From the IMG/VR virus record IMGVR_UViG_3300036978_000035, positions 1-29,578 of that record: a stretch of DNA of 29,578 nucleotides, one strand, 5' to 3'. Origin of the DNA: a virus. Shown piece after piece: positions 5,065-29,450 of this stretch. Position 1 is the first letter of the stretch; each line of letters begins with the position of its first letter. The notes below the pieces were generated by a model. The model did not search any database. It was given only the letters and a program-made list of their open reading frames with translations, and had not been told where the DNA came from. The position numbers and the translations under genes are program-made.

Positions 5065-5215
5065 AATAACAGACGCGCTGGCTAGGGTTGTACTATTCAC
5101 TATAGGCGGGGTTATCTGTCTAGGTGGTTACGAAACCGCTTTGCGTATGTTTGGCGTATTAATTATAATTAAAGCCATAGGAAATGAACTAAAACACGAA
5201 CAAAATGAAAATTAA
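5051..5215 (+). CDS. Small membrane protein, 54 aa
   Basis: I take the ATG at 5051 rather than 5033 because it ends the AATATAGTTATG element seen before five other genes. The product is two hydrophobic stretches (VVLFTIGGVICLGG and FGVLIIIKAIG) separated by a short polar turn, with a charged tail, so one or two membrane helices are likely. It overlaps the sigma-like gene by 14 bases and the next gene by 11. Function unknown. Confidence 0.68.
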   Translation: MKTNEITDALARVVLFTIGGVICLGGYETALRMFGVLIIIKAIGNELKHEQNEN

Positions 5216-5486
5216 AGACGAATACAAAGGTAAAACCATAGTAACTTACGACAGCGTACTAGGTCAAAGACGTATCGAAGTAGACAAAATCCACCCAGCG
5301 CAGTTTAAATACTACGTGACTATAGGACTAGGGTACATTTTCGAAAAGGAAAACGCTACAATTAGTTATAAAGGCGTAGAAGAAGCCACCGAAAACACGG
5401 AAAAAGAACCTATTCAAGAACCAGTAACAAAGAAACCAAATGCCACAGCCAATAAAAGGAGAAAAAAAAGAGACGTTCCTAGCTAG
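5205..5486 (+). CDS. Unknown 93-aa protein with basic tail
   Basis: Residues 1-48 look like a compact beta-rich domain (YKGKTIVTYDSVLGQRRIEV). Residues 55-80 are an acidic Pro/Thr/Glu linker, and the end is strongly basic (NKRRKKRD). The start is preceded by AAAACACGAA, a 10-mer also found before the genes at 5625 and 5806. The 3' end runs over the start of the next gene for 47 bases, and an A8 run (5462-5469) lies in that overlap. No family recognised. Confidence 0.72.
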   Translation: MKIKDEYKGKTIVTYDSVLGQRRIEVDKIHPAQFKYYVTIGLGYIFEKENATISYKGVEEATENTEKEPIQEPVTKKPNATANKRRKKRDVPS

Positions 5487-5628
5487 GTGTATAGCAGACG
5501 AAGAAAGCGTAAACGCATTTCCCGACAAATTCCAACGTTACGCGGTTTGTGTCCATACGTGGGAATCTCATTCACGTGAAGCGCTAAGTATTTACAAGAA
5601 GACCTTTAAAAACACGAAGAAGAAATGA
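5440..5628 (+). CDS. Conserved-type small protein with RC-D-FPD-QR-AVC pattern
   Basis: 62 aa. The sequence KGEKKETFLARC, then FPDKFQRYAVCVHTWESH, follows a pattern I recall from many phage head-region proteins and fusions. They start M-P-x-P-x-K-G-E, continue F-x-x-R-C and F-P-D-x-x-Q-R-x-A-V-C, and end with Trp. Its function is not known to me. It begins 47 bases inside the previous gene and is offset +1 from it, so both frames are used over the overlap. The stop overlaps the next start. Confidence 0.7.
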   Translation: MPQPIKGEKKETFLARCIADEESVNAFPDKFQRYAVCVHTWESHSREALSIYKKTFKNTKKK

Positions 5629-5813
5629 AATACTACGTTCTAGACTATGGTAAAGACATGATCCACGAAGGTAAAGTAATAACAGACTACCTAGAGAAAA
5701 TGCAATTTCACCACATAGCGTATCTAACCAGCGCCGACGGGTTACTATGTCTAGAAGAAGTAGACGAAGACGACTTTTTAAACCACTTCAAAAACACGAA
5801 ACAAAATGTCTAA
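5625..5813 (+). CDS. Unknown acidic protein, 62 aa
   Basis: Begins in the previous stop region (ATGA) and ends inside the TerS start by eight bases. Short beta-alpha-beta appearance, with an acidic C-terminal half (LEEVDEDDFLNHF). No cysteine pair, membrane segment or known motif. Its position immediately upstream of the terminase genes is common for small packaging or head accessory genes, but nothing in the sequence proves that. Confidence 0.68.
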   Translation: MKYYVLDYGKDMIHEGKVITDYLEKMQFHHIAYLTSADGLLCLEEVDEDDFLNHFKNTKQNV

Positions 5814-6237
5814 ACACAAATACATAAAGACACCCGAACTACTATGGGAAATGTTCGAAGCATATAGAGACAAAACAATAAACAACCCCCGACTAATTGA
5901 CAAAGCACTACAAAGCGGTAAGGTAGTTCAAGAATCCTTAAGAGTTCCACTAACGTTAGAAGGTTTCGAAGTTTGGGGCTACGAACACGGCGTAACACTA
6001 GACCACTATTTCAGAAATACGAATGGAGCGTATGAACATTATTGCGCCATCTGTCAACGTATAAAGAAGTCAATCCGTCAAGACCAAATCGAAGGGGGTA
6101 TGGTCGGTCAATATAACCCGTCCATAACTCAAAGACTAAACAACCTAACCGAAAAGACGGACGTAACCAGTAACGGCGAAAACATAAACGAAATTAAGAT
6201 TTCAATAATAAGACCCGACACGAAAGAACTAGAGTAA
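5806..6237 (+). CDS. terS: Terminase small subunit
   Basis: 143 aa. The N-terminal TPELLWEMFEAYRDKT and the later VPLTLEGFEVWGYEHGVTLDHY resemble gp3-like DNA-packaging small subunits common in Bacteroidota phages. In these, the latter segment is the DNA-binding helix-turn-helix. The C-terminal part (IEGGMVGQYNPSITQRLNNL) is the oligomerisation region typical of this type. It recognises phage DNA and recruits the large subunit, whose gene begins at the last base of its stop. Confidence 0.85.
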   Translation: MSKHKYIKTPELLWEMFEAYRDKTINNPRLIDKALQSGKVVQESLRVPLTLEGFEVWGYEHGVTLDHYFRNTNGAYEHYCAICQRIKKSIRQDQIEGGMVGQYNPSITQRLNNLTEKTDVTSNGENINEIKISIIRPDTKELE

Positions 6238-7388
6238 TGGAACTAAAGTCTACGATAGTCTTTGAACGGAATTACGACGCGCTTTATAATAACGAGGCGC
6301 GTTTTATAATTAACGAGGGTGGGTCGCGTTCAAGTAAGACCTATAGCCTATGCCAACTTATTCTAGTCTATTGCCTACAGAACAAAGGCGTAGTCGTTTC
6401 AATCATTCGTAAGACGTTCCCAGCTTTGAGGGCTACAGCTATGCGAGACTTTCTAGAAGTTCTAAAAGATTCTGGAATATACGAAAAGACTAGCCATAAC
6501 ATGAGTGAACATATCTACACATTCTCGAATGGATCTATGGTAGAGTTCTTTAGTGTAGACGACGAACAAAAGATACGCGGACGTAAACGACATCTGGCGT
6601 GGTGCAATGAAGCTAACGAAATTTTTTACGACGATTTCAGTCAATTGAATATGCGTACTGAACACAAGCTAATCTTTGACTATAACCCGTCAGATTCCAA
6701 CAGCTGGCTTTACGACCTACCAAAAAACGAAAGCATATTAATTAAGTCAACTTACAAGGATAACCCGTTTCTACCAGAAAGCATAAAGATTCAAATAGAA
6801 GACTTAAAGCGAACCGACGAAGCACTATACCAAATCTACGCACTAGGTGAAAAAGCCATAAGTAAAAGTAACATCTATTCAAACTGGACATTCTTACCAC
6901 ACAGACCCGCACGCTTTACTGAATTCATTTACGGACTGGATTTTGGTTATAACCACCCCCTTGCATTAATGCGCATTTACTGGCACGAAAAGGACATCTT
7001 TATAGAACCAGTCATTTACGAAAGCTACCTAACCACCGCGAACCTAATCGAAAAGCTAGCCAGTCTAAACATAGAGAAACACGCCGACATAGTAGCCGAC
7101 TACGCCAGACCCGAAATAATAGCCGAACTTAACAACGCTGGTTATAACGTACTGAATGCAAACAAGGCGGTTAAGAAAGGATTAGACGCTGTTAAGTCGT
7201 TCGGAGTTTACGCTCAAGAACACGAAGCATTAAAGAAAGAATACCAGAACTACAAATGGAAAAAGGTAGGGGACACAATCCTAGACGAACCCGTTAAACT
7301 TTGGGATGACGCTATGGACGCGACACGTTACGCGGTTACTTATATCAAAGAGCAATACTACACGGACGACAGCTACTTCGCGTTTTAG
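6237..7388 (+). CDS. terL: Terminase large subunit, PBSX/Terminase_3 type
   Basis: 383 aa, ATPase plus nuclease. The Walker A variant GGSRSSKT occupies residues 28-35, and the Walker B-like LAWCNEANEI lies near 120. The C-terminal RNase H-fold nuclease shows three acidic positions: GLDFGYNHPLAL (about 232), DIVADYARPEII (about 285-290) and LWDDAMDATRYAV (about 360-366). The length is near the low end for the family but all parts are present. It cuts and translocates DNA into the prohead. It is followed not by portal but by tail genes, an unusual order. Confidence 0.95.
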   Translation: MELKSTIVFERNYDALYNNEARFIINEGGSRSSKTYSLCQLILVYCLQNKGVVVSIIRKTFPALRATAMRDFLEVLKDSGIYEKTSHNMSEHIYTFSNGSMVEFFSVDDEQKIRGRKRHLAWCNEANEIFYDDFSQLNMRTEHKLIFDYNPSDSNSWLYDLPKNESILIKSTYKDNPFLPESIKIQIEDLKRTDEALYQIYALGEKAISKSNIYSNWTFLPHRPARFTEFIYGLDFGYNHPLALMRIYWHEKDIFIEPVIYESYLTTANLIEKLASLNIEKHADIVADYARPEIIAELNNAGYNVLNANKAVKKGLDAVKSFGVYAQEHEALKKEYQNYKWKKVGDTILDEPVKLWDDAMDATRYAVTYIKEQYYTDDSYFAF

Positions 7389-7410
7389 AACCTAAACAAA
7401 GACGGAAAAT

Positions 7411-7422
7411 AATATAGTTATG
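7411..7422 (+). promoter_or_regulatory. AATATAGTTATG start element
   Basis: One of six near-identical 12-mers ending exactly with the start codon (others at 5042, 11603, 14170, 17485 with one change, and 20124). It fixes the start of the 489-aa tail gene at 7420. Confidence 0.6.
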
Positions 7423-8889
7423 GCACAATCAATAATAGCACAACCCCAGAGAATCATGCCCGCTTACAACCCTATTAGGTTTATAGTGGATAGCACCAAC
7501 AAAAACAAAACTGGATTCCGTTACATTTACCAGATTTACAGCGGCGCGACCTTACTAGGTTCGTTCAAAGTCTTACCGACCTATTCGACTGGTTACGGAG
7601 AAATAGACCTATCTAAATTCCTTTCGAGTTATGTAAGCTGGGACTTTGACCCTAGTGTAACTCTAGATAAAGCCGCTCCAAATAGTTATAAGAACTACGC
7701 AGTAAACATAGGCGAAGAATACCTATACGAAATTACCTACACGTCTGCGCTAACCAACAGCGGAACGAACACACGTATAAACGTAGCTAACATCTTTCAA
7801 GTAGGCGACCAGATTAACATATCACAAAACGACGGCGGGACTGCTAACCCATTACTAGAAGGGTTACATACAATCATTGCAGTTTCTGGAACTTGGATTG
7901 ACGTTAACGTACCTTTCAGTTCTATTACTAACGTGAACATTGACGGCGTTATAAACTACGCAGACAATCAGAAAGTAGTAACATACAATATAACAAACAT
8001 AACCAACCTAAAAGTCTTTAACGGGGCGTTCACGTGGGTCGACTGGGTTACTTATAATTATAACGACTACACACTAGACGGGGTTACTAAGCAATGGCTA
8101 ACGAACCAGCCAAAGACGGACTTTTATTGTACACTAGGACAAGACCTATTTCTAAACGCCCGCGCTGTAGTAGGTAAAAAGATTTACTTTCAAAATAACG
8201 ACGGCGACACGTATAGCAAAAACGTAGTTAATAACGACACAATAGTAAGCGTGGCTGTAGGCTGTAACAATTACGGCGCATTGACTCCGATTACTGGAAC
8301 GTTACCAATGATTAAAGAAGACACTACGTACTATGACTTCTGGTACGAAGACGCTGGACAAAAGTCTGTTAAGTATAGAGTAAACATAGACAGACGCGTA
8401 CAAATAAACGAATACCATATTTGTTTCTTGGATCGTCTAGGTTCATTCTCTAGCTTTGCATTTCAGCTAAAGTCTTACGAACGTGGCGACGTTACACGGG
8501 ATGAGTTTAATAAAGACGTACAAGGCTACGTTAAAGCTGGTGCTTGGAATTATAATTACGAGGAGTTCGGATTTAATACGTTCAATATAAACGTGACTAA
8601 GACGCTAGAGTTAAACACTAACTGGATGACTCAAAACATGTCGGACTATTTCCAAGAATTGATAACGTCACCGCAAACGTTTTTAAAGTTAGTCCAATAC
8701 GTAACGACAGAAGACGGCGAACTAGTCCTAGATGAAGACGGATGCCCTATACACGTAGCAGAAAGCACGGCTTACGTTCCTTGCATTGTACAAAACAATA
8801 GCTTCGAAGTATACAAACAACGTAACAAGCATTTAATCAAACAAAGCATTTCAGTTAAACTAGCAAACAACGATAACGTAAATGGTTAA
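7420..8889 (+). CDS. Putative tail or baseplate structural protein, 489 aa
   Basis: A long, Asn/Thr/Tyr-rich, almost cysteine-poor protein with alternating beta strands, typical of virion surface or baseplate components. I see no enzymatic motif. It overlaps the 904-aa tail protein by eight bases and stands between terminase and tape measure, so it is most likely part of the tail tip. A possible beta-sandwich lies at residues about 110-190 (TNTRINVANIFQVGDQINIS and IIAVSGTWIDVNV). Assignment rests on composition and context. Confidence 0.7.
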   Translation: MAQSIIAQPQRIMPAYNPIRFIVDSTNKNKTGFRYIYQIYSGATLLGSFKVLPTYSTGYGEIDLSKFLSSYVSWDFDPSVTLDKAAPNSYKNYAVNIGEEYLYEITYTSALTNSGTNTRINVANIFQVGDQINISQNDGGTANPLLEGLHTIIAVSGTWIDVNVPFSSITNVNIDGVINYADNQKVVTYNITNITNLKVFNGAFTWVDWVTYNYNDYTLDGVTKQWLTNQPKTDFYCTLGQDLFLNARAVVGKKIYFQNNDGDTYSKNVVNNDTIVSVAVGCNNYGALTPITGTLPMIKEDTTYYDFWYEDAGQKSVKYRVNIDRRVQINEYHICFLDRLGSFSSFAFQLKSYERGDVTRDEFNKDVQGYVKAGAWNYNYEEFGFNTFNINVTKTLELNTNWMTQNMSDYFQELITSPQTFLKLVQYVTTEDGELVLDEDGCPIHVAESTAYVPCIVQNNSFEVYKQRNKHLIKQSISVKLANNDNVNG

Positions 8890-11602: not shown

Positions 11603-11614
11603 AATATAGTTATG
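11603..11614 (+). promoter_or_regulatory. AATATAGTTATG start element
   Basis: Exact copy of the 12-base element, placing the tape measure start at 11612; the preceding gene ends at 11596. Confidence 0.6.
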
Positions 11615-13714
11615 AATGAAGTAACGATACCACTAAAGCTAACGGGCGTCGGTTCGATGAAAGCCGAACTGCGCGCATTAAAAGCTGAAATAGCAAACGC
11701 TACAGATCCCGCACAAATGGAAGCGCTCGCAATGAAAGCGGGTGAACTATCGGACAAAATAAAAGACGCAAACGACGCGGTTAACGTCTTCGCTAGTGGG
11801 TCGAAGTTCGAACAAGTAAGCAACGGCTTAGGCGGTATTAAAGATTCGTTAATGTCGTTAGACTTTGAAGAAGCTAGCCAGAAATCAGAAGCCTTCGCTA
11901 ACAACTTAGGTAAGTTAAACCAAACAGATATAAGCGGGGCGCTCAAAGGAATTACTGGAACTGTAAAAAATATGGGTGGTGCGTTTGTTAAGTTAGGCGC
12001 GCAGATTCTAGCGAACCCTTTGTTTTTATTAGTGGCTATTATTACTGCTATTGTAGTAGCTATAGGCGCGTTCTTAAATAAAATAGGTGTACTAGGTACG
12101 GTTATGGATTTTATCATGGCGCCTATTAATGCTGTTATTGAAGGGTTTAAAATGCTTACGGACTGGTTAGGTTTAACTAGTTATGCAGCAGAAGAAAACG
12201 CAGAACGTATAGCAAAAGCAAACGAAACTATTATAGAATCTAGTAAAAGAAGAACGGAATCTGTAGGAGCTGCTTACGACTACGAAATAGAAAAGGCTAA
12301 GATTAACGGAAAAGACACCAATAAACTAGAACTAGAGAAGTCGAAAGCCCTAACGAACGAAGCTAAGTTACGTCGTAATCGTCAAATGATGGAACTAAAA
12401 GCGTTAAACGCCATTGCAAACGACGACAACAAAGAACAACGTAAGAAACTACGCGAATCTATTAACGCGGAAAACATAACTATTCGTCAAGGTTCGCGCG
12501 AACGTATGTTAATTTTAATGCGTGAAACCGCAGCTAAACGCGAGGAGTACAGAAAACAAAGAGAAGCAGCACAAAAGGCCGCAGAAGAAGAAGCGAAAGC
12601 AGCAGCGCAAGCCGCAGCAGATGCAGCACGCGAAGCCGCAGCACGTTGGAAAGAAAGGCGCGACGCTATTAAAAAAGCGACAGAAGACGTTCAAAAAGAA
12701 ATTGCAGCAGCTAACAAGTTATTAACAGATTCTACAAAGACCCAACAACAAGTAGAAGTTGACGACGTTAAGGTAAAATACGAAGCGTTAATAGCAGAAG
12801 CTGTAAAGTACAAACAAGACACTACAGCGCTAGAGAAAGCGAAGCAATTAGAAATTGATAAAATTAACAAAGGCTATACAGACGCGGAAATAGAAAAGCA
12901 AAAGAAAATTGACGACGAAAAACTAGCCGACCAAAAAAGACAAGCCGACCAACTCAAAGCGTTTAATGAAGCCGAAGCGTTAAAGTCCGAAGAACTAGAC
13001 GAACAAATTTACCAATCGAAACTTAGCGCCCAACAAAAAGAACTAGAAACTAATCAATATCACTTCGACGAACTTAAAGCGCAGTACGAACGTTACGGAA
13101 AAGACACAACCGATTTAATAGCGAAACAAAAAGAAGAAGAAGACAAAATTAACGCGAAGTACGCACTAGCCGAAATCGAAAAGGCTAAAGGTATTCGAGA
13201 TTCAAAGATTCAATTTACGCAAGACATAGCAACTGGTATCGGGGCTATTGGTGAAATGTTTATAAAGGATCAAAAGAAACTAGAGAAATTCAATAAAGCA
13301 CAAGCCCTAGTTCAAATCGGAATTGACACGGCGAAAGCAATCAGTTCGTTAGTCGCTATGTCGCAAGCTAACCCACTTAATGCGGTTACTGGTGGTACGG
13401 CTGGAATTGCACAATACGCCAGCGGAATTTTACAAATCATTACCAACGTAGCTAAAGCAAAAAGTTTGTTATCAAATCCTAGCGGGTCTGTTTCTGGCGG
13501 TGGTGGTGGCGGTGGTTCTGAATCCACTACTAGCGTTACACCTATTTCGCCAGCCGTACAAATGTACGGACAAGGTAACAACTTAAATACTGCGGGCGGT
13601 CAAGGTTCGGTTAACTCTAATCAAAATATGGTCGTTACTGCTGTTGTTTCTGAAACGGACATAACGAACACACAAAACAAAATAGATAAAATAAAAAAAT
13701 CTGCGGAACTATGA
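11612..13714 (+). CDS. Tail tape measure protein
   Basis: 700 aa, almost wholly helical. Hydrophobic segments follow residue 135 (NPLFLLVAIITAIVVAIGAF, then VMDFIMAPINAVI). An Ala/Glu/Lys-rich coiled coil runs over about residues 305-350 (AEEEAKAAAQAAADAAREAA), with further coils to about 530 and a Gly-rich linker (GSVSGGGGGGGS) near 630. This composition and length are those of a siphophage tape measure, whose length sets that of the tail. The usual tail assembly chaperones are not immediately upstream; candidates lie on the other strand at 16143-17451. Start fixed by AATATAGTTATG. Confidence 0.9.
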   Translation: MNEVTIPLKLTGVGSMKAELRALKAEIANATDPAQMEALAMKAGELSDKIKDANDAVNVFASGSKFEQVSNGLGGIKDSLMSLDFEEASQKSEAFANNLGKLNQTDISGALKGITGTVKNMGGAFVKLGAQILANPLFLLVAIITAIVVAIGAFLNKIGVLGTVMDFIMAPINAVIEGFKMLTDWLGLTSYAAEENAERIAKANETIIESSKRRTESVGAAYDYEIEKAKINGKDTNKLELEKSKALTNEAKLRRNRQMMELKALNAIANDDNKEQRKKLRESINAENITIRQGSRERMLILMRETAAKREEYRKQREAAQKAAEEEAKAAAQAAADAAREAAARWKERRDAIKKATEDVQKEIAAANKLLTDSTKTQQQVEVDDVKVKYEALIAEAVKYKQDTTALEKAKQLEIDKINKGYTDAEIEKQKKIDDEKLADQKRQADQLKAFNEAEALKSEELDEQIYQSKLSAQQKELETNQYHFDELKAQYERYGKDTTDLIAKQKEEEDKINAKYALAEIEKAKGIRDSKIQFTQDIATGIGAIGEMFIKDQKKLEKFNKAQALVQIGIDTAKAISSLVAMSQANPLNAVTGGTAGIAQYASGILQIITNVAKAKSLLSNPSGSVSGGGGGGGSESTTSVTPISPAVQMYGQGNNLNTAGGQGSVNSNQNMVVTAVVSETDITNTQNKIDKIKKSAEL

Positions 13715-14154
13715 CAAGCTATCAAGCCCTAATAAACGAAATAACAGCGTTTTACGATAACCATATTCAAGTAAAAAAGGTAGGGTCTGACTTTAAAGAG
13801 CAGATGTTTAACTTCGCAACTAAAGACGAAAAATACCCTATCGTTTATATAGTTCCAGTAAGCGCTTTGCCTACTGAAAACACGAACGATTTTACTTTAG
13901 AAATATATTGCTTTGACATAATCCAAAAAGACCGCGCTAATATTAACGTAATCCTTTCAGATTGCCAGCAAATTCTATACGATCTTTACACGTACTTTAT
14001 TAACTCTAATAACTACGCGTTCGACGTAATAGACATACCTAGTTTTACTCCGTTAAATAACGATTTACTAGACTATTGTGCGGGCTGGGTAATGACTGCG
14101 ACGTATTCAGTAAATAACTGGACGGACTGCGCCGTACCTTTAAAGGGAAACTAA
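13711..14154 (+). CDS. Putative tail terminator/completion protein
   Basis: 147 aa, starting in the tape measure stop (ATGA). The mixed alpha/beta pattern is IVYIVPVSALP, then LEIYCFDIIQKDRANINVIL, SDCQQILYDLYTYF and a C-terminal CAGWVMTATY. It resembles short proteins that lie beside tail genes in Bacteroidota phages and are comparable to tail-terminator folds (gpU-like), which cap the tube and join it to the head. No catalytic motif. The role is inferred from position and predicted fold. Confidence 0.6.
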   Translation: MTSYQALINEITAFYDNHIQVKKVGSDFKEQMFNFATKDEKYPIVYIVPVSALPTENTNDFTLEIYCFDIIQKDRANINVILSDCQQILYDLYTYFINSNNYAFDVIDIPSFTPLNNDLLDYCAGWVMTATYSVNNWTDCAVPLKGN

Positions 14155-15576: not shown

Positions 15577-15732
15577 ATGCCACAAGTAAGAAACGAAATA
15601 TACAACGACGAAGGATTAGTAAGAGTTGAATTTATTGAAACAGACGAACCTACGCAAGAAGAACTTATTGCACAAAAAGAAGCTGAACTGCTAGCTATGT
15701 ACAATGAACTGAAAGCATTAAAAGGTGAATAA
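15577..15732 (+). CDS. Small acidic protein, 51 aa, after the fibre gene
   Basis: Starts two bases after the fibre stop and its TAA overlaps the next ATG (TAATG). The N-terminal half is beta-like (MPQVRNEIYNDEGLVRVEFI); the C-terminal half is a Glu/Leu/Ala helix (QEELIAQKEAELLAMYNELKAL) likely to form a coiled coil. Location suggests a fibre-associated or chaperone role, which cannot be shown from sequence alone. Confidence 0.68.
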   Translation: MPQVRNEIYNDEGLVRVEFIETDEPTQEELIAQKEAELLAMYNELKALKGE

Positions 15733-16163
15733 TGGCGTACGCTAATAACGGGGTATTCAATATAAAATATAAGACGCGTAATAAAATAGCGCAGACTTTG
15801 CGCCGTATTATTGCAGATGAAACGCTAATTGACACGGGCGCGCTCTACGATTCAATTAGAATTAACGCGCAAATCCCAGCCTTAGGCGAATTGGAAATAC
15901 AGATATTAGCTATGTATTATTTTGGCTTTCTAAATAATGGTACTATAAATATGGCGCCGTTTGATTTATGCGCTAAGTTAACAGAAGCCCTACAAAATAA
16001 CGGAACTACTCAAGAAATATTTCAGCAGTATACTGAATGGATGGCGCAACGTTACCCTATCTTACAAGTGGCTAATATTCTAGGTCAAAAAGAAAGTATT
16101 ATTTATACATTCGAACCTATAGGCGGTGAATTTAACGCAAACCTAACCTTTAGAGGCTTCTAA
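15732..16163 (+). CDS. Putative head-tail joining or minor structural protein
   Basis: 143 aa. The helical start with TRNKIAQTLRRIIADETL, followed by IDTGALYDSIRI and a YYFGFLNNGTI segment, recalls HK97 gp10-like neck or tail-completion proteins, in which D-T-G-x-L-x-x-S-I marks the first strand. The match is partial. The gene runs head-on into the minus-strand chaperone-like pair, overlapping its 3' end by 21 bases (16143-16163) with no visible terminator between. Confidence 0.55.
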   Translation: MAYANNGVFNIKYKTRNKIAQTLRRIIADETLIDTGALYDSIRINAQIPALGELEIQILAMYYFGFLNNGTINMAPFDLCAKLTEALQNNGTTQEIFQQYTEWMAQRYPILQVANILGQKESIIYTFEPIGGEFNANLTFRGF

Positions 16164-16928
16164 GTAACCCATTTCTTTACGCATTGCCAGCATATTAAAT
16201 ACAAATATCAAAGGTAGTTTGCCTATTTCTTCTATTTTGGTTAGGTCACCTTCGCAAAGGTCAAACAATAAAGCCTCCCAGCCCCACTTTTTAGAGCGTT
16301 TGCCTTGTTCTTTTTGCTCTAGACTAGCTTTGTAGTCTTCTATAGAATCAAAGTCCTTGACGTCTAGCTTTTCTTCGTCGTCTTCGTCGTCTGTTTCATT
16401 GAACAAATGCTCGTATTTTTTCATAAAGTCTTCGCGGTACTTCATGTAATCAGTTAAAATGCCGTACACTTCTGTTACGTAAAGGTCGTCGAATAGTTCG
16501 TAACGATCAAAGGGACTAAATATATACGGCTCAAATTCTACGTTTTGCCATTTGTCCGCGTCTACGCGTCTATAAAACACGCTAGCTATATGCGAAATAT
16601 GGTTAATGTAGTCGTTAGTCAGAAAGTATTCTAAGTCTATAAATTCAAATAACGTAAGTTTTTTAAACGGCTGTAGAATGTACGTTTGTTCTTCTAAAAC
16701 TAGTTCGTGTTTATAGTTCTTTTTAGGTTCGGATTGAAACCATTTAATAGATTCGTACATAGCTGTTATTTCATCTATGCTTAGGTCTTCTAAGTCTTCG
16801 CTAGGTACGTCTAATAAAACAGCAAGGCTATCTAACTGGAAAGAAAAATAGCCCGCTGTCTTGTCAATTTGTCGCAGTTCTTTAAACTGGTAAAGTTTAA
16901 TTTTGTTCCAACCCGTTGGTAGCTTCAT
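16143..16928 (-). CDS. Putative tail assembly chaperone B (paralogue)
   Basis: 261 aa on the minus strand. The N-terminus LPTGWNKIKLYQFKELRQI can be aligned with IPNEMNEMTIQQFEEITEI of the upstream gene, and later segments correspond loosely, so the two are probably paralogues. Helical, acidic (DDEDDEEKLDVKDFD near 185) and free of membrane segments, as expected of tail assembly chaperones, which coat the tape measure during tube assembly. Its start lies 32 bases inside the upstream gene and is offset +1 in frame. Function inferred. It is one of two minus-strand genes in the whole genome. Confidence 0.6.
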   Translation of the reverse strand: MKLPTGWNKIKLYQFKELRQIDKTAGYFSFQLDSLAVLLDVPSEDLEDLSIDEITAMYESIKWFQSEPKKNYKHELVLEEQTYILQPFKKLTLFEFIDLEYFLTNDYINHISHIASVFYRRVDADKWQNVEFEPYIFSPFDRYELFDDLYVTEVYGILTDYMKYREDFMKKYEHLFNETDDEDDEEKLDVKDFDSIEDYKASLEQKEQGKRSKKWGWEALLFDLCEGDLTKIEEIGKLPLIFVFNMLAMRKEMGYLEASKG

Positions 16929-17451
16929 TTGCTTTTTCTACGTGGTTATTAATTGCACTAGCCACCGCTACTAAATAAGGCACGGCAACTTCTGCTTTGA
17001 GTTCACGAATCAATTTAGCTTTCTGTTTTATGTGCGCATCTGTATAGTGTTCGGTTTTCGTTAAGTCCGTACGTTTAAATAAGACCGCTAGAACTTCTGA
17101 AATGTAGCCTTTGTGTTTATTGCTTAGAATCTTTTCAATAGTCTTCGTGTCCTTTGCAGTTAGTTTAAAGTCTTCGTCGTACGCTTGGTAAGTAAAGCCG
17201 TCAATTTCGAAACGCTTTAATAGTTCTGAACTGGGAACTTTCGCCGTGTTAAATTTACTAATGTACTCTTTGAATACTTCGAAGTCCACTTCTTCGATTT
17301 CTTCTGGGACACCCATAAACTTAAAAACTTCTAAATGCTTTTCGATTACGTCTAGATTGCTGTTAGCGTGGATTTCTGTAATTTCTTCGAACTGCTGAAT
17401 GGTCATTTCATTCATTTCGTTCGGAATCTGTTTTCCTAATATTTCTACCAT
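16897..17451 (-). CDS. Putative tail assembly chaperone A
   Basis: 184 aa from the ATG at 17451. A start at 17469 would lie on the candidate -7 box (17474-17467), so I prefer MVEILGKQIP as the first residues. Predicted soluble and helical, with the IPNEMNEMTIQQFEEITEI opening also typical of gpG-like tail assembly chaperones of several Bacteroidota phages, as far as I recall. It lies divergently from the protease gene at 17494. The usual place for such genes is immediately upstream of the tape measure on the same strand; here they lie 3 kb beyond it, reversed. Confidence 0.6.
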   Translation of the reverse strand: MVEILGKQIPNEMNEMTIQQFEEITEIHANSNLDVIEKHLEVFKFMGVPEEIEEVDFEVFKEYISKFNTAKVPSSELLKRFEIDGFTYQAYDEDFKLTAKDTKTIEKILSNKHKGYISEVLAVLFKRTDLTKTEHYTDAHIKQKAKLIRELKAEVAVPYLVAVASAINNHVEKANEATNGLEQN

Positions 17452-17466
17452 AATATAAATTTTGAA

Positions 17467-17474
17467 CAAATATA
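17467..17474 (-). promoter_or_regulatory. -7 box TATATTTG for the minus-strand pair
   Basis: Read on the minus strand, 17474 to 17467 is TATATTTG, matching TAnnTTTG. It lies 16 bases before the ATG at 17451. The -33 element is not clear. Confidence 0.55.
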
Positions 17475-17484
17475 CATTTTTTTT

Positions 17485-17496
17485 AATATGGTTATG
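17485..17496 (+). promoter_or_regulatory. AATATGGTTATG start element (one change)
   Basis: Same 12-base element with A to G at position six. It argues that the protease starts at the ATG at 17494 rather than the ATG at 17488, which is part of the element. Confidence 0.55.
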
Positions 17497-18477
17497 TTGA
17501 AAGACCTACCAATTTACAAAATTACTATTGACCCCGAGTATAGCGACGGCGAAGATTTAGGGATTGAACAAATAGCTTTCACAGATGCGCCCGCCATAAA
17601 GGTTAAAGGGCTAGCTTTCTCAAATGTAGAAAAACGTTTTTTCTCTGACGAACTTAAATACAGAGTAACAGCGCCAGCCATGATTCCTATGGAAATCTAT
17701 AGACGCGACGACGAAGCTGGTGACTATTACGTACAATTTGACGAAAACACGATTGAACAAATTTACGTCAAGTTCATGAAAGACCTTAGTAATAAGAACG
17801 TCTTTAACCTAGAGCATGATCCAAGTCAAGAAGTCCCAGCATATATTTTAGAAAGCTGGATAGTAGAAAGCCCGAAACAAGACAAAGCCTATACAACCTA
17901 CGGAATCGAAGTTCCTAAAGGTACGCTTATGCTAACGGCGCAAGTAACCGACACGGACTACTATAACGAACTAGTAAAAAACGAAAAACTAGGATTCTCT
18001 ATTGAAGGTTTTCTAGGAATGAAACTAAGCAAACACTTAAACAAATATACAATGAAATTACCAGACGGAGAACACCGCATCGAAGACAAAATTTACGTTG
18101 TCAAAGATGGCGAAGTAATCGAAATTAAAGACGTAGAAAAAGAAGAAGTAGCAATGGCTGACGAAAAAACTACAGAAGAAGAAGTAGTAAAAGAAGAAGT
18201 TGCTATGGAAGAAGTCGTTAAAGAAGAAGAAGAAGTTAAAGAAGAAGTCAAAGAAGAAATGGCTATTGACCCAGCAATGGACACAGAAGCTATTCTAGCA
18301 ATCGTTAAACCAGTTATCGAAGAAAACATTAACGCGGTTATTGGAATGATTGCAGACTTGAAAAACCAAATGGAAGAACTTCTAGTTAAAGAAGAAGAAG
18401 CGGAAGACATGGAAATGGCGAAAGATGTTAAAATGTCAGCTTTCGATAAATTCAAAGCGTTTCGCGCATTCAAATAA
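17494..18477 (+). CDS. XkdF-like serine protease fused to a scaffold-like tail
   Basis: 327 aa. Residues about 20-180 match the putative phage serine protease XkdF (Peptidase_S78_2): NLEHDP with H108, YILESWIVESPKQD, GIEVPKGTLMLTAQVTD and LGFSIEGFLG with S169, the presumed His/Ser of the active site. Residues about 215-305 are an extremely acidic low-complexity region, VVKEEVAMEEVVKEE-like, then helices ending in FKAFRAFK. This arrangement is that of a head-maturation protease carrying its own scaffold domain. The major capsid gene follows by 33 bases. Confidence 0.88.
   Translation: MLKDLPIYKITIDPEYSDGEDLGIEQIAFTDAPAIKVKGLAFSNVEKRFFSDELKYRVTAPAMIPMEIYRRDDEAGDYYVQFDENTIEQIYVKFMKDLSNKNVFNLEHDPSQEVPAYILESWIVESPKQDKAYTTYGIEVPKGTLMLTAQVTDTDYYNELVKNEKLGFSIEGFLGMKLSKHLNKYTMKLPDGEHRIEDKIYVVKDGEVIEIKDVEKEEVAMADEKTTEEEVVKEEVAMEEVVKEEEEVKEEVKEEMAIDPAMDTEAILAIVKPVIEENINAVIGMIADLKNQMEELLVKEEEAEDMEMAKDVKMSAFDKFKAFRAFK
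18139..18262 (+). repeat. GAAGAAGT/AAAGAAG low-complexity coding repeat
   Basis: Imperfect Glu/Lys/Val codon repeats encoding the acidic scaffold-like segment of the protease gene. The repeat also produces a spurious long open frame on the opposite strand. Confidence 0.8.
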
Positions 18478-19511: not shown

Positions 19512-20027
19512 ATGGCTTGTGCTACATTACAAGAAATACTAAAGGGTTGCGACCCGAATAGCGGTGGTATTTACACCCTATTAATAAACCAACAAGACGA
19601 AATTACCGCAATTACTACTAACGAAACTACTACTAACTGGGAAGTAACCGCTATTACACACACAACGCCTTACGTGGCTTTGGAGTTCAAACGTAATACT
19701 GGTAACTTTACAGAAGAAGCTGCTATCGATTTAGTAAACGGATCGTCTTATGTTACTCAAACAATTAACTTAATGTTTCACCGACGCGACCAAGAGAAGT
19801 CAAAAGCTATTAAAATCTTAGGCGCTGGACAACAATACTTAAACGCTGTCGTAGGTGACGCTAACGGAAAGTATTGGTATTTCCCTTTCTTACAAGTAAC
19901 AGCTTACGGCGAAGGTTCGGGAACTGCTAGAGCAGATGGTTCTAAATACTCTTTAGTATTGACTGCTGAAAACGAAAGTTTAGCTTACGAAGTAGACCCT
20001 ACTGTTATTGCTGGTCTTACAGTTTAA
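19512..20027 (+). CDS. Probable major tail tube protein
   Basis: 171 aa, beta-rich with a central helix-poor core: NWEVTAITHTTPYVALEFKR and NLMFHRRDQEKSKAIKI, then LNAVVGDANGKYWYFPFLQV. The length and strand pattern fit a tail tube fold. It is a single gene placed between two strong terminators, immediately after the capsid gene, and has highly expressed-type codons. This is what one expects of the second most abundant virion protein. A head protein is the alternative. Leader ATTATAATC before ATG. Confidence 0.7.
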   Translation: MACATLQEILKGCDPNSGGIYTLLINQQDEITAITTNETTTNWEVTAITHTTPYVALEFKRNTGNFTEEAAIDLVNGSSYVTQTINLMFHRRDQEKSKAIKILGAGQQYLNAVVGDANGKYWYFPFLQVTAYGEGSGTARADGSKYSLVLTAENESLAYEVDPTVIAGLTV

Positions 20028-23856: not shown

Positions 23857-24947
23857 ATAAAAACAAAGGCGGGCGTCCAGTTGTAAGCAAAGGCGTTCCA
23901 CGTGTGCGGTTAAGTCCGCAAGAATTCGACCTAATTAAGCAATATCGGGCAATCAAAGACAAGTCTAACGAAATGGGTTTAAATGAAAACGATGTTAAGC
24001 ACGGCTGGATTAAAACAAAAGACGCTAGTTTATTCTTTGCGAACCCTAGTTTTAACGCTGGTAAAGAACTAGACCTAGACTTTCATAAGCTACTAGAAAA
24101 CGCGCCTAAATTAGAAGTAAAGCCTAAGCAAACACGGAACTTTAACGGGGCTTTTGACAAGTTAGTCTTTACAGATGTTCACATAGGAATGGACGTAACC
24201 GACAAAGGACGTAATTTATACGCGTCTAACTGGAATGAAGACATACTTTTTGAACGTTTGTCCCAAATGATTGACCACACACTAGCTAAACAGAATAGCA
24301 ACGTATTACATATCTTAGATTTAGGCGACTATCTAGACGGCTTTAACGGATTGACTACTAGAGGCGGTCACACGTTACCACAAAACATGAGTAACCAAAA
24401 AGCGTTTGACGTTGGTTTCTTATTTAAGACTTTATTAATTACACACTTGTCGCCATTCTACGATAAAATATATGTTAGGAATATTTGTAACGATAACCAT
24501 AGCGGTGACTTTTCCTACTTTGTTAACCAGTTCTTTAAAACGTATGTCGAACGGGATTTAAAAAACGTCTTAGTAACTAACCAGACTTTGTTTATTGATC
24601 ATGAAATAATTGATAACTATTGTTTTGTAACTACACACGGAAAAGACACACACAATTTAAAACACGGATTTAGACCTAAAATTGACGCGAACCAGATTAA
24701 TAAAATACTAGGATATTTAAACGCTAAAGGACTACTTAACAAAGGCTACGAAATTATTTTCGAAAAAGGCGACAGCCATTTATATTTATTCGATAGTTCA
24801 AGTTGTGACGTATTTAAGTATTACAATTACCCAGCTTTTAGCCCGTCTAGTAACTGGGTGGCTACTAATTTTCAGCTAGGTAAAAGCGGATTTATTCACT
24901 TTAATTACGATTTAGAACAAAAGAGTATAAACGAATTCTTTTTTTAG
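23853..24947 (+). CDS. Calcineurin-like metallophosphoesterase with AT-hook-like N-terminus
   Basis: 364 aa. Metal-binding motifs appear in order: FTDVHIGMD (D108, H110), LDLGDYLDGF (near 150), ICNDNHSGD (the GNHD equivalent, near 213), TTHGKDTH and EKGDSHLYL (the GHxH equivalent). Residues 1-20 (KNKGGRPVVSKG) hold a GRP motif like an AT-hook and may bind DNA. It resembles phage and SbcD-like phosphoesterases; substrate could be DNA. It is the last gene before the main terminator, at the end of the lysis operon, so it may have been added as a mobile cargo. Confidence 0.82.
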   Translation: MNKNKGGRPVVSKGVPRVRLSPQEFDLIKQYRAIKDKSNEMGLNENDVKHGWIKTKDASLFFANPSFNAGKELDLDFHKLLENAPKLEVKPKQTRNFNGAFDKLVFTDVHIGMDVTDKGRNLYASNWNEDILFERLSQMIDHTLAKQNSNVLHILDLGDYLDGFNGLTTRGGHTLPQNMSNQKAFDVGFLFKTLLITHLSPFYDKIYVRNICNDNHSGDFSYFVNQFFKTYVERDLKNVLVTNQTLFIDHEIIDNYCFVTTHGKDTHNLKHGFRPKIDANQINKILGYLNAKGLLNKGYEIIFEKGDSHLYLFDSSSCDVFKYYNYPAFSPSSNWVATNFQLGKSGFIHFNYDLEQKSINEFFF

Positions 24948-24949
24948 TG

Positions 24950-24957
24950 TATATTTG
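24950..24957 (+). promoter_or_regulatory. TATATTTG box before the terminator
   Basis: Perfect TAnnTTTG starting three bases after the stop of the phosphoesterase gene. It would start transcription about 20 bases before the hairpin at 24985, so if active it gives only a short RNA. A chance AT-rich match is possible. Confidence 0.35.
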
Positions 24958-24984
24958 AACTTTCATAATAGGTTTTTAAAAATT

Positions 24985-25018
24985 AGGGTTAGCAGTTGAA
25001 AGCGTTAACCCTTTTTTT
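24985..25018 (+). terminator. Intrinsic terminator of the late operon
   Basis: The stem AGGGTTA/TAACCCT (24985-24991 with 25006-25012), with an inner GC/GC pair, is followed by seven T residues (25012-25018). It is placed 38 bases after the last late gene. Confidence 0.9.
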
Positions 25019-25210
25019 ATGTCCATCATTTTAAAGCGAACACCCCTATGTAAGGATATACCCTTAATAAATAGCACGTGTCACACTTTTACAAATAATT
25101 GTGTCGCATATTTAGCAGATATTTGCGACATTCTGTAACATATTTGTCAAGTTTTTGTGACAATTTACTGGACAAACATTTGCCACTATTTAGATTTATT
25201 GGATTTTGTA

Positions 25211-25260
25211 TACGTATTTATCCGTATTTATACGTAAAATATACGCTATCGTATATAATT
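25211..25260. repeat. 10-bp-periodic tandem repeat
   Basis: Consecutive decamers TACGTATTTA, TCCGTATTTA, TACGTAAAAT, ATACGCTATC and GTATATAATT keep the ACGTA/CGTA core in a 10-base phase over the first three, with decay afterwards. The phase equals one helical turn, as expected of protein-binding iterons. Confidence 0.6.
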
Positions 25261-25367
25261 TAAGTGAATTTCCTATACATTACGTACTTTTCACGTAAAG
25301 TTAATCCCAGTAAATACTAGCATTTTAAAAATAAATGTAAAAAACTTTAAAAAAAATGTTAAAAAAG

Positions 25368-25398
25368 TTTGGTAGTTCAGATTTAGTCTTTATATTTG
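25368..25398 (+). promoter_or_regulatory. Early promoter, Bacteroidota consensus
   Basis: TTTG (25368-25371) and TATATTTG (25391-25398) are separated by 19 bases, a fit to the TTG-N17-23-TAnnTTTG Bacteroidota promoter. It precedes the first early gene by 37 bases. The best promoter in the genome. Confidence 0.82.
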
Positions 25399-25435
25399 CA
25401 TATAATTAATTCACAAACACACAAAAAAACAAGTT

Positions 25436-25603
25436 ATGAAAACGAAAAAAGAAATGAACGAAATTATTTTAAAAGAGTTAAACGACTTATGGAATGAGTA
25501 CGAGCAGTTTAACGAAGTGTTAGGCGCGGACCACGAAGCTACGCAAAGAGCAGCTACACGTTGGGCGTCAATTAATGAACTAGTAAATAAATTAGGACTA
25601 TGA
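25436..25603 (+). CDS. Small early protein, 55 aa
   Basis: First gene after the consensus promoter. The 55-residue product is helical and charged (LKELNDLWNEYEQFNEVLGA and WASINELVNKLGL), without membrane segments or cysteine. The leader has AAAAAAACAAGTT before the ATG, an A-rich strong start. It ends in an ATGA overlap with the next gene. Such first-expressed small proteins of virulent phages often modify host proteins; there is no family match to test this here. Confidence 0.8.
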   Translation: MKTKKEMNEIILKELNDLWNEYEQFNEVLGADHEATQRAATRWASINELVNKLGL

Positions 25604-27756: not shown

Positions 27757-28678
27757 AGGACAAGAATTAAAATACCTAATTGATTACAAAGAAGGTAAAA
27801 TAAAACAAGGTTTGGGGCTGGATTGTCTACTAGACGACTTTCTAAGGTTTAAACCTAGACAGCTTAACATCATTCTAGGACATGACAACGTAGGTAAGAC
27901 TTACTGGATTAACTGGTATTTCCTTTCTTTAGCTTTAAAGCACGGAATTAAGTTTGTTATTTGGTCTGGTGAAAACCAATACGGACAAATTCTACGCGAC
28001 ATGATCCAAATATACAGCGGACAGCCTTTTAAAAGTCTAAACATTTCGCAAATTACTAGCTATTCTACTTACCTAGAACAATTCTTTGACTTTGTGGATA
28101 ACTCAAAGCTGTACAAACCAGAAGAACTTCTAGACATTTTTAAGAAGTCAGATGCGAAAGCGTGTTTAATAGACCCGTATACTGGACTAGATAGGAAAAT
28201 GGGTTACGAGGGTAATTACGAATTCTTAAATATGGCGCGTCAATTTGTTAATGAAACTGGAATGACTTTGTACATTAACACGCATCCAAATACTGAAAGC
28301 GGACGAAGTGGTAACTTATTCCCAGACAACCACCACTGGAAAGGACATTTAAAGCCACCAATGAAAGACCACATAGAAGGCGGTAAGGCTTTTTTGAATA
28401 GATGTGACGATATGTTTGTAATACATAGGCTAGTTAAACACGAAGAAATGAAGTTTATAACGCTGGTAACAACGGAAAAAATAAAAGACACGGACACGGG
28501 CGGTAAAATAACACCACTAAACGACTATATTTTTTGTGAATATAACAACGGACTAGGGTTTAAAATAGGTGGTATTGATCCACTTAAAAAAGAAAGACCA
28601 AAGCCAGCTGAACAAACTAAGTTAACAACGTTAGGAGAAAAACTAAAAACAATAAACAATGAAAATAGGCTGGTTTAG
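27743..28678 (+). CDS. RecA-fold ATPase, DnaB/Twinkle-like helicase
   Basis: 311 aa. Walker A GHDNVGKT (46-53), Walker B-like KACLIDPYTGLD with D144, sensor-like LYINTHPNT with H181, and a GGKAFLNRCDDMFVIHR segment with the arginine-rich region of RecA-type helicases. It lacks the N-terminal primase-type domain, so it is a lone motor domain. Position after the DUF6291 gene and near the PP-loop gene supports replicative helicase function. Its 3' end overlaps the PP-loop gene by 20 bases. Confidence 0.83.
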   Translation: MLKTKGQELKYLIDYKEGKIKQGLGLDCLLDDFLRFKPRQLNIILGHDNVGKTYWINWYFLSLALKHGIKFVIWSGENQYGQILRDMIQIYSGQPFKSLNISQITSYSTYLEQFFDFVDNSKLYKPEELLDIFKKSDAKACLIDPYTGLDRKMGYEGNYEFLNMARQFVNETGMTLYINTHPNTESGRSGNLFPDNHHWKGHLKPPMKDHIEGGKAFLNRCDDMFVIHRLVKHEEMKFITLVTTEKIKDTDTGGKITPLNDYIFCEYNNGLGFKIGGIDPLKKERPKPAEQTKLTTLGEKLKTINNENRLV

Positions 28679-29450
28679 TTGTGGTGTGACAAGCGCAGTA
28701 GCGTGTAAAATAGCACTAGAACAATACGGAAAAGAAAATGTAGCGCTTTATTACATGGTAATAGATAGCGCGCACCCAGACAATGAGCGTTTTATTTTAG
28801 ATTGTGAACGCTGGTATGGTAAAAAAATTACTAAAATACGTAGTGAAAAATATACCGATCAGTTTGACGTAATAGAAAAGACGAAATACATTAACGGCGT
28901 AGCTGGTGCAAGGTGTACTTTAGAACTAAAAAAGAACGTGCGTTATAAAGTTGAAAAAGAAATTGAATACGATGCGCAAATATTTGGCTTTGAGTTTAGC
29001 AAAAAGGAAATAAACCGCGCTATTCGTTTTGCAGAACAGCACCCGAAAGCAAAACCTTTATTTCCATTAATCGAAAGACAAATGACAAAAGAACAATGCG
29101 CAGAACTTTTACTAATGAATGGAATTAAATTACCTAAAATGTACGAACTGGGATTCCACAATAACAATTGTATAGGGTGCGTAAAAGGTGGTAAGGGTTA
29201 CTGGAATAAAATACGAAAAGAATTTCCAGAGTTTTATAAACGTATGTCCGATTTAGAAATTCAAACTGGCGCAAGTTGCATAAAAGGAAAATACCTAGTA
29301 GATTTAAAACCAAACGAAGGAAAACACGAACCGCCTATACTACCAGACTGCGGTACATTTTGCGAAATAGAATTTGCAGACTTAATAGACCCAAACACGG
29401 AACGAATTTACAGCGGTCAAATGAATATTAAACAACTAAAACTTTTTTAA
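28659..29450 (+). CDS. PP-loop ATPase, PAPS reductase-like
   Basis: 263 aa. The PP-loop variant WFSCGVTSAVACKIAL (5-20) and the second-strand VALYYMVIDSAHPDN are those of phage PAPS-reductase-like adenine-nucleotide alpha hydrolases. Later cysteines (C171, C174, C207, C231, C235) in NCIGCVKGG, ASCIKG and DCGTFC could hold an iron-sulfur cluster or zinc. Family members include true PAPS reductases, DndC (DNA phosphorothioation) and tRNA or base-modification enzymes; the exact reaction is unclear. It is encoded between helicase and methyltransferase genes. Confidence 0.82.
   Translation: MKIGWFSCGVTSAVACKIALEQYGKENVALYYMVIDSAHPDNERFILDCERWYGKKITKIRSEKYTDQFDVIEKTKYINGVAGARCTLELKKNVRYKVEKEIEYDAQIFGFEFSKKEINRAIRFAEQHPKAKPLFPLIERQMTKEQCAELLLMNGIKLPKMYELGFHNNNCIGCVKGGKGYWNKIRKEFPEFYKRMSDLEIQTGASCIKGKYLVDLKPNEGKHEPPILPDCGTFCEIEFADLIDPNTERIYSGQMNIKQLKLF

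Follow-up and report, generated by a model that had tools for sequence, protein, structure and literature searches.

Two overlapping minus-strand paralogues are probable short and long tail assembly chaperones in a Bacteroidota-type phage lineage

The stretch of DNA analysed here (the window) is an IMG/VR virus record of 29,578 bases in which two overlapping genes, A and B, lie on the minus strand between the tail and head modules (Table 1). These had been described as the only minus-strand genes of the genome, and they are the only convincing ones: the remaining minus-strand ORFs mostly fall inside plus-strand ORFs of greater length and have the appearance of antisense by-products. The length given for A is counted from an ATG; the ORF list also offers an alternative TTG upstream. 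Along the plus strand, the terminase is followed by two large tail genes, the tape measure, a terminator-like gene, the inverted A/B pair, the protease, the capsid, a tube-like gene and the portal. The pair is thus inverted and remote from the tape measure gene, as first described, lying on the opposite strand about 2.4 kb downstream of its end, and the same position is seen in relatives. The tape measure protein was aligned with the tape-measure-like gp50 (686 aa) of Nonlabens phage P12024L (hhalign E 9e-9; this and all other hhalign E-values are those of single comparisons), and the tube-like gene probably encodes the major tail tube protein, as its position suggests. The 143-aa gene that is convergent with B adjoins A/B in nearly all relatives, while on the other side the start codons of A and the protease gene are about 37 nt apart. 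Elsewhere in the otherwise densely coded window, a stretch of 650 bases (24948-25599) is without any ORF of 60 aa or more, and two regions were assigned by eye only, one as PAPS-reductase-like (28659-29450) and one as DNA cytosine methyltransferase-like (411-1100).

Table 1 Features of the A/B locus and of the genes discussed with it (positions in the window).
Feature	Position	Strand	Basis or remark
Probable tape measure protein, presumed A/B client	11612..13714	+	hhalign to P12024L gp50
Tail terminator/completion-like gene	13711..14154	+	hhalign to P12024L gp42, E 2.4e-4
143-aa gene convergent with B	15732..16163	+	3' ends overlap by 21 nt
Gene B, probable long tail assembly chaperone (TAC-NC / gpGT-like)	16143..16928	-	261 aa
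B residues 162-261, counterpart of the T extension (-1 frame in relatives)	16146..16445	-	FF/LSFR junction in the B-GT alignment
A/B overlap	16897..16928	-	32 nt in the window; B in the +1 frame relative to A
Gene A, probable short tail assembly chaperone (TAC-N / gpG-like)	16897..17451	-	184 aa, without T domain
TATATTTG, Bacteroidota-type -7 promoter element (TAnnTTTG) of the A-B operon	17467..17474	-	Conserved motif upstream of A
Head maturation protease (Peptidase_S78_2), divergent from A	17488..18477	+	Pfam PF14550, E 7.7e-10
Probable major tail tube protein, presumed T-domain target	19512..20027	+	hhalign to P12024L gp03, E 3.4e-7

The proposal that the pair has its own promoter was supported by the upstream sequences. 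The TAnnTTTG motif, present in the window as TATATTTG, was found in 54 of 55 distinct regions upstream of A, mostly 20-26 nt from the start and therefore at near-fixed spacing. In the sole exception (A at 7064-7609 of its contig), no TAnnTTTG occurs within 75 nt, and different DNA replaces the upstream sequence. The promoter type, together with the related flavobacterial phages, points to a host among the Bacteroidota.

Relatives of A and B are present in many IMG/VR contigs, mostly at 57-99% identity, with the lowest at 24-32%. An alignment search with B gave near relatives only, among the matches listed, and no relative was found when B was scanned against genome contigs. A and/or B run antisense to the protease or capsid gene in all 200 related loci in which such a gene could be labelled, and both genes are present in 189 of these (the loci overlap, so that the counts are of loci and not of independent genomes). 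Purifying selection on both genes is strong: dN/dS is about 0.03-0.11 for 86 distinct sequences of A and 84 of B. In one contig, two A/B pairs face each other around a single protease gene (5165-8645), with tape-measure matches on either side; this contig is probably a chimeric or palindromic assembly.

The initial annotation had guessed from their openings that A and B are paralogues, and this is borne out at the profile level. With 14 sequences per side, A and B were aligned over 119 collinear columns (hhalign E 1.7e-5), and with about 30 sequences per side the comparison reached E 5.3e-6 and a score of 44.2, above all controls: 60 column shuffles scored no higher than 22.6, and nine unrelated families of the same phages, used as decoys, scored 10-20 with a maximum of 20.3. 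AF2 models of the two proteins (pLDDT 86.7 for A and 83.4 for B) returned largely the same phage proteins from BFVD in Foldseek searches, including a P12024S protein. The top BFVD match of the A model was a 42%-identical relative of A which, against the B model, gave E 1.5e-5 and a TM of 0.66 by its length. By these profile and fold comparisons, A and B are remote paralogues. Because A is about equally far from B and from the G proteins described below, the scores cannot tell a duplication of A/B within the lineage.

Single-sequence searches with A and B gave nothing in PHROGs, nothing above the Pfam threshold and no match to a phage record. Likewise, no named tail assembly chaperone (TAC) family in Pfam or PHROGs matched A/B, and no credible match was obtained when PDB sequences were searched by profile. 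Fold comparison of the A model with the HK97 TAC (2ob9_B) gave a weak match (Z 3.1, rmsd 3.7, 66 residues), with unrelated rows at similar Z, and the fold search of the PDB with the B model gave neither a 2ob9 row nor any informative row. One fold match common to A and B, the P12024S protein, has gp40 as its counterpart in P12024L. Directly after gp40 lies gp41, whose KWGWYHTFNV... resembles the C-terminus of B. Together with more than 130 viral contigs, gp40/gp41 make up a sister family with remote homology to A/B.

In 133 of 143 loci of this sister family, a T extension in the -1 frame comes after a single ORF (G). All 85 distinct G-T junctions examined contain a poly-T slippery run, TTTTTTT; in contigs with gp40 relatives the junction sequence is NTT TTT TTT TAT CAT TTA, inside an FFYHLGND motif, and products read through the shift end LSFRERL..YD.LF...KWGWYSSIYALAKGD... 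Eight sister loci that were first classed as in-frame GT were judged to be probable overextended matches rather than true fusions, as the match ends barely past the junction. This layout matches that of lambda-type G/GT genes, with the frameshift predicted from the sequence, and the two deposited hypothetical proteins of P12024L (23946-24640) appear to belong to a single tail assembly chaperone gene with a frameshift. PHROG 32199, which has no function assigned, matches eight of the eight sister-family members scanned.

P12024L resembles the window in more than the detectable homology of gp40/gp41 to A/B, as its protease, capsid, tube-like, portal and tape-measure genes are homologous to those of the window. 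By contrast with A/B, gp40/gp41 consist of one ORF and a -1-frame T part joined at a poly-T run, lie on the strand of the tail genes and adjoin the terminase. The sister order, all on the same strand, is terminase, TAC, terminator-like gene, large tail genes and tape measure, with the relative of the window's terminator-like gene (hmmsearch label TT) placed directly after the G/GT gene, whereas in the window lineage the terminator-like gene and the TAC come after the tape measure and the TAC is inverted. Minus-strand genes 3' of the P12024L tape measure were considered as positional counterparts of A/B and were set aside, as they bear no resemblance by eye.

When profiles were compared across the two families, the alignment of B with GT, frameshifted in silico, ran from end to end (hhalign E 6.4e-24, score 160.9, 234 of about 248 columns). 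The alignment of B with unshifted G was poorer (E 6.7e-11, score 77.0), because B has the T segment in frame. A aligned with the G ORFs at E 2.8e-6 and a score of 45.4, and column shuffles in these comparisons scored no higher than 27.3. In hmmsearch, the G ORFs were matched by the A HMM at several loci (8e-6 to 2e-5) and by the B HMM (1e-8 to 1e-13). The core of the T-equivalent part of B is KWGWEALLFDLCEGDLTK..., and the same terminal segment as in the sister products is found in frame as DYMKYREDFMKKYEHLFNE...KKWGWEALLFDLCEGD..., so that the G-like and T-like parts of B lie within one single frame. Since B matches GT and A matches G without T, the short form has its equivalent in A, and the long one, fused in frame, in B. 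The call of a duplicated cassette accordingly holds for the paralogy of the two genes and fails for a plain second copy, B carrying the in-frame T equivalent that A is without.

These comparisons link A and B by profile and by fold to a family with G/GT layout, in agreement with their first description as chaperone-like; the lack of similarity between A and B, or to chaperones, that had been named as speaking against it was not what was found. The A-B and B-GT alignments show two isoforms with a common N-terminal domain and a T domain on the longer one. Production of the long form by a programmed frameshift and a position just upstream of the tape measure gene are usual for TACs without being strictly defining; here, B is read in a single open frame from a start codon of its own, and the pair is neither upstream of the tape measure nor on its strand. 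The opposite strand and the separate promoter are also features of moron-like genes, and A and B might be unrelated minus-strand genes, either regulators or morons, inserted between the tail and head modules. However, unrelated genes would hardly be expected to match a frameshifted GT product end to end, or to be conserved at every related locus under strong purifying selection, and we give this explanation almost no credence.

As the initial annotation had stated, B starts inside A at an offset of +1. The overlap is 14-38 nt among relatives, and the +1 frame of B is kept in 72 of 72 distinct overlap sequences. Conservation of this kind would be compatible with A and B being TACs whose functional long form is an A-B fusion made by a +1 (or -2) frameshift in the overlap. 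Several features of the same 72 sequences argue against such a product: the overlap is short, its sequence and the context of the A stop are variable, no slippery heptamer is conserved in it and no A-B fusion was found. The start of B is conserved, the B frame is closed no more than 21 codons before its ATG and, in 33 of the 72, an in-frame stop lies immediately 5' of that ATG. Moreover, a fusion would hold two G-like parts, as B alone has a complete one. An A-B fusion peptide, which had been suggested as something to look for, is therefore very unlikely.

A pair of this kind has a counterpart in T4. Genes 26 and 51 of T4 are paralogues (hhalign E 2e-22), and gp51 is about 45 residues longer at its C-terminus; from the layout seen here, we take them to be the probable short and long TAC genes. 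Like A/B, they are a pair of paralogues of which the longer has extra C-terminal residues, and they differ from A/B in that T4 is a myophage and that genes 26 and 51 are divergent and close to the tape measure gene, 29. T4-like phages differ in how the short and long genes are oriented: two pseudoteven/slopek-type records have the shorter gene after 51 on the same strand. Common ancestry of the two pairs was considered and is unsupported at the sequence level: when gp26 and gp51 were compared by profile with A, B, G and GT, the hhalign scores of 15.5-19.5 were at the level of the decoys. The A/B pair and the T4 pair are thus likely to be of independent origin, although a relation by fold may exist, and A/B would be a further version of a known kind of gene pair.

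T4 genes 26 and 51 carry long-standing baseplate annotations in the records (baseplate hub, hub assembly), and the shared layout raises the alternative that A and B act on the tail tip or baseplate, as chaperones or assembly factors, and not on the tape measure. We consider this unlikely, given that A/B have no profile similarity to gp26/gp51 and that the -1 frameshift layout of the sister family is one that tape-measure chaperones are known to have. In addition, PMC10885494, citing Vladimirov, Gautam and Davidson (2022), describes some T4-like phages as having separate TAC genes, one short and one long and fused, in place of frameshifting, and the terms TAC-N and TAC-NC appear in PMC12846349 where it cites the same work.

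Taken together, these data make it probable that A and B encode two isoforms of a tail assembly chaperone, from two paralogous overlapping genes under their own minus-strand promoter, and the gene pair appears to replace the programmed frameshift of related phages. In lambda, the long form gpGT is made from one gene by -1 frameshifting, at about 30:1 (PMC5009743, also the source for the roles of G/GT in tail assembly). A and B are like gpG and gpGT in being short and long forms with a common N-terminal domain, with a C-terminal T domain on the long form alone; unlike lambda, they are two genes, inverted and with their own promoter and, unlike textbook TACs, they neither adjoin the tape measure gene nor share its strand. 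By analogy with lambda, many copies of A and few of B would coat the tape measure protein via the common N-terminal domain, the T domain of B would recruit tube subunits, and both proteins would depart before completion of the tail. The ratio of A to B would then be set by translation, with the internal start of B, perhaps coupled to A, replacing a frameshift of a few percent. The short-to-long ratio has been reported to be crucial in lambda, and few recoding events in tailed phages are as widely conserved as the G/GT frameshift.

With modest confidence, we favour the view that a Bacteroidota-type siphophage lineage gave up the -1 frameshift independently of the T4-like phages, keeping a short and an in-frame long copy that were moved to their own divergent promoter. 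No report of this two-gene inverted arrangement in siphophages was found in the open-access literature searched. PHROG 32199 and P12024L gp40/gp41, now hypothetical, gain a functional reading from this analysis, and TAC genes can lie antisense and away from the tape measure, where annotation based on position overlooks them. If the proposed replacement is correct, the dose and timing of the isoforms would be set by transcription and translation initiation and not by slippage, and tail assembly would not need to rely on a fixed frameshift ratio. A large natural clade that seemingly uses two genes in place of the frameshift could then be used to ask whether slippage itself matters, or just the ratio.
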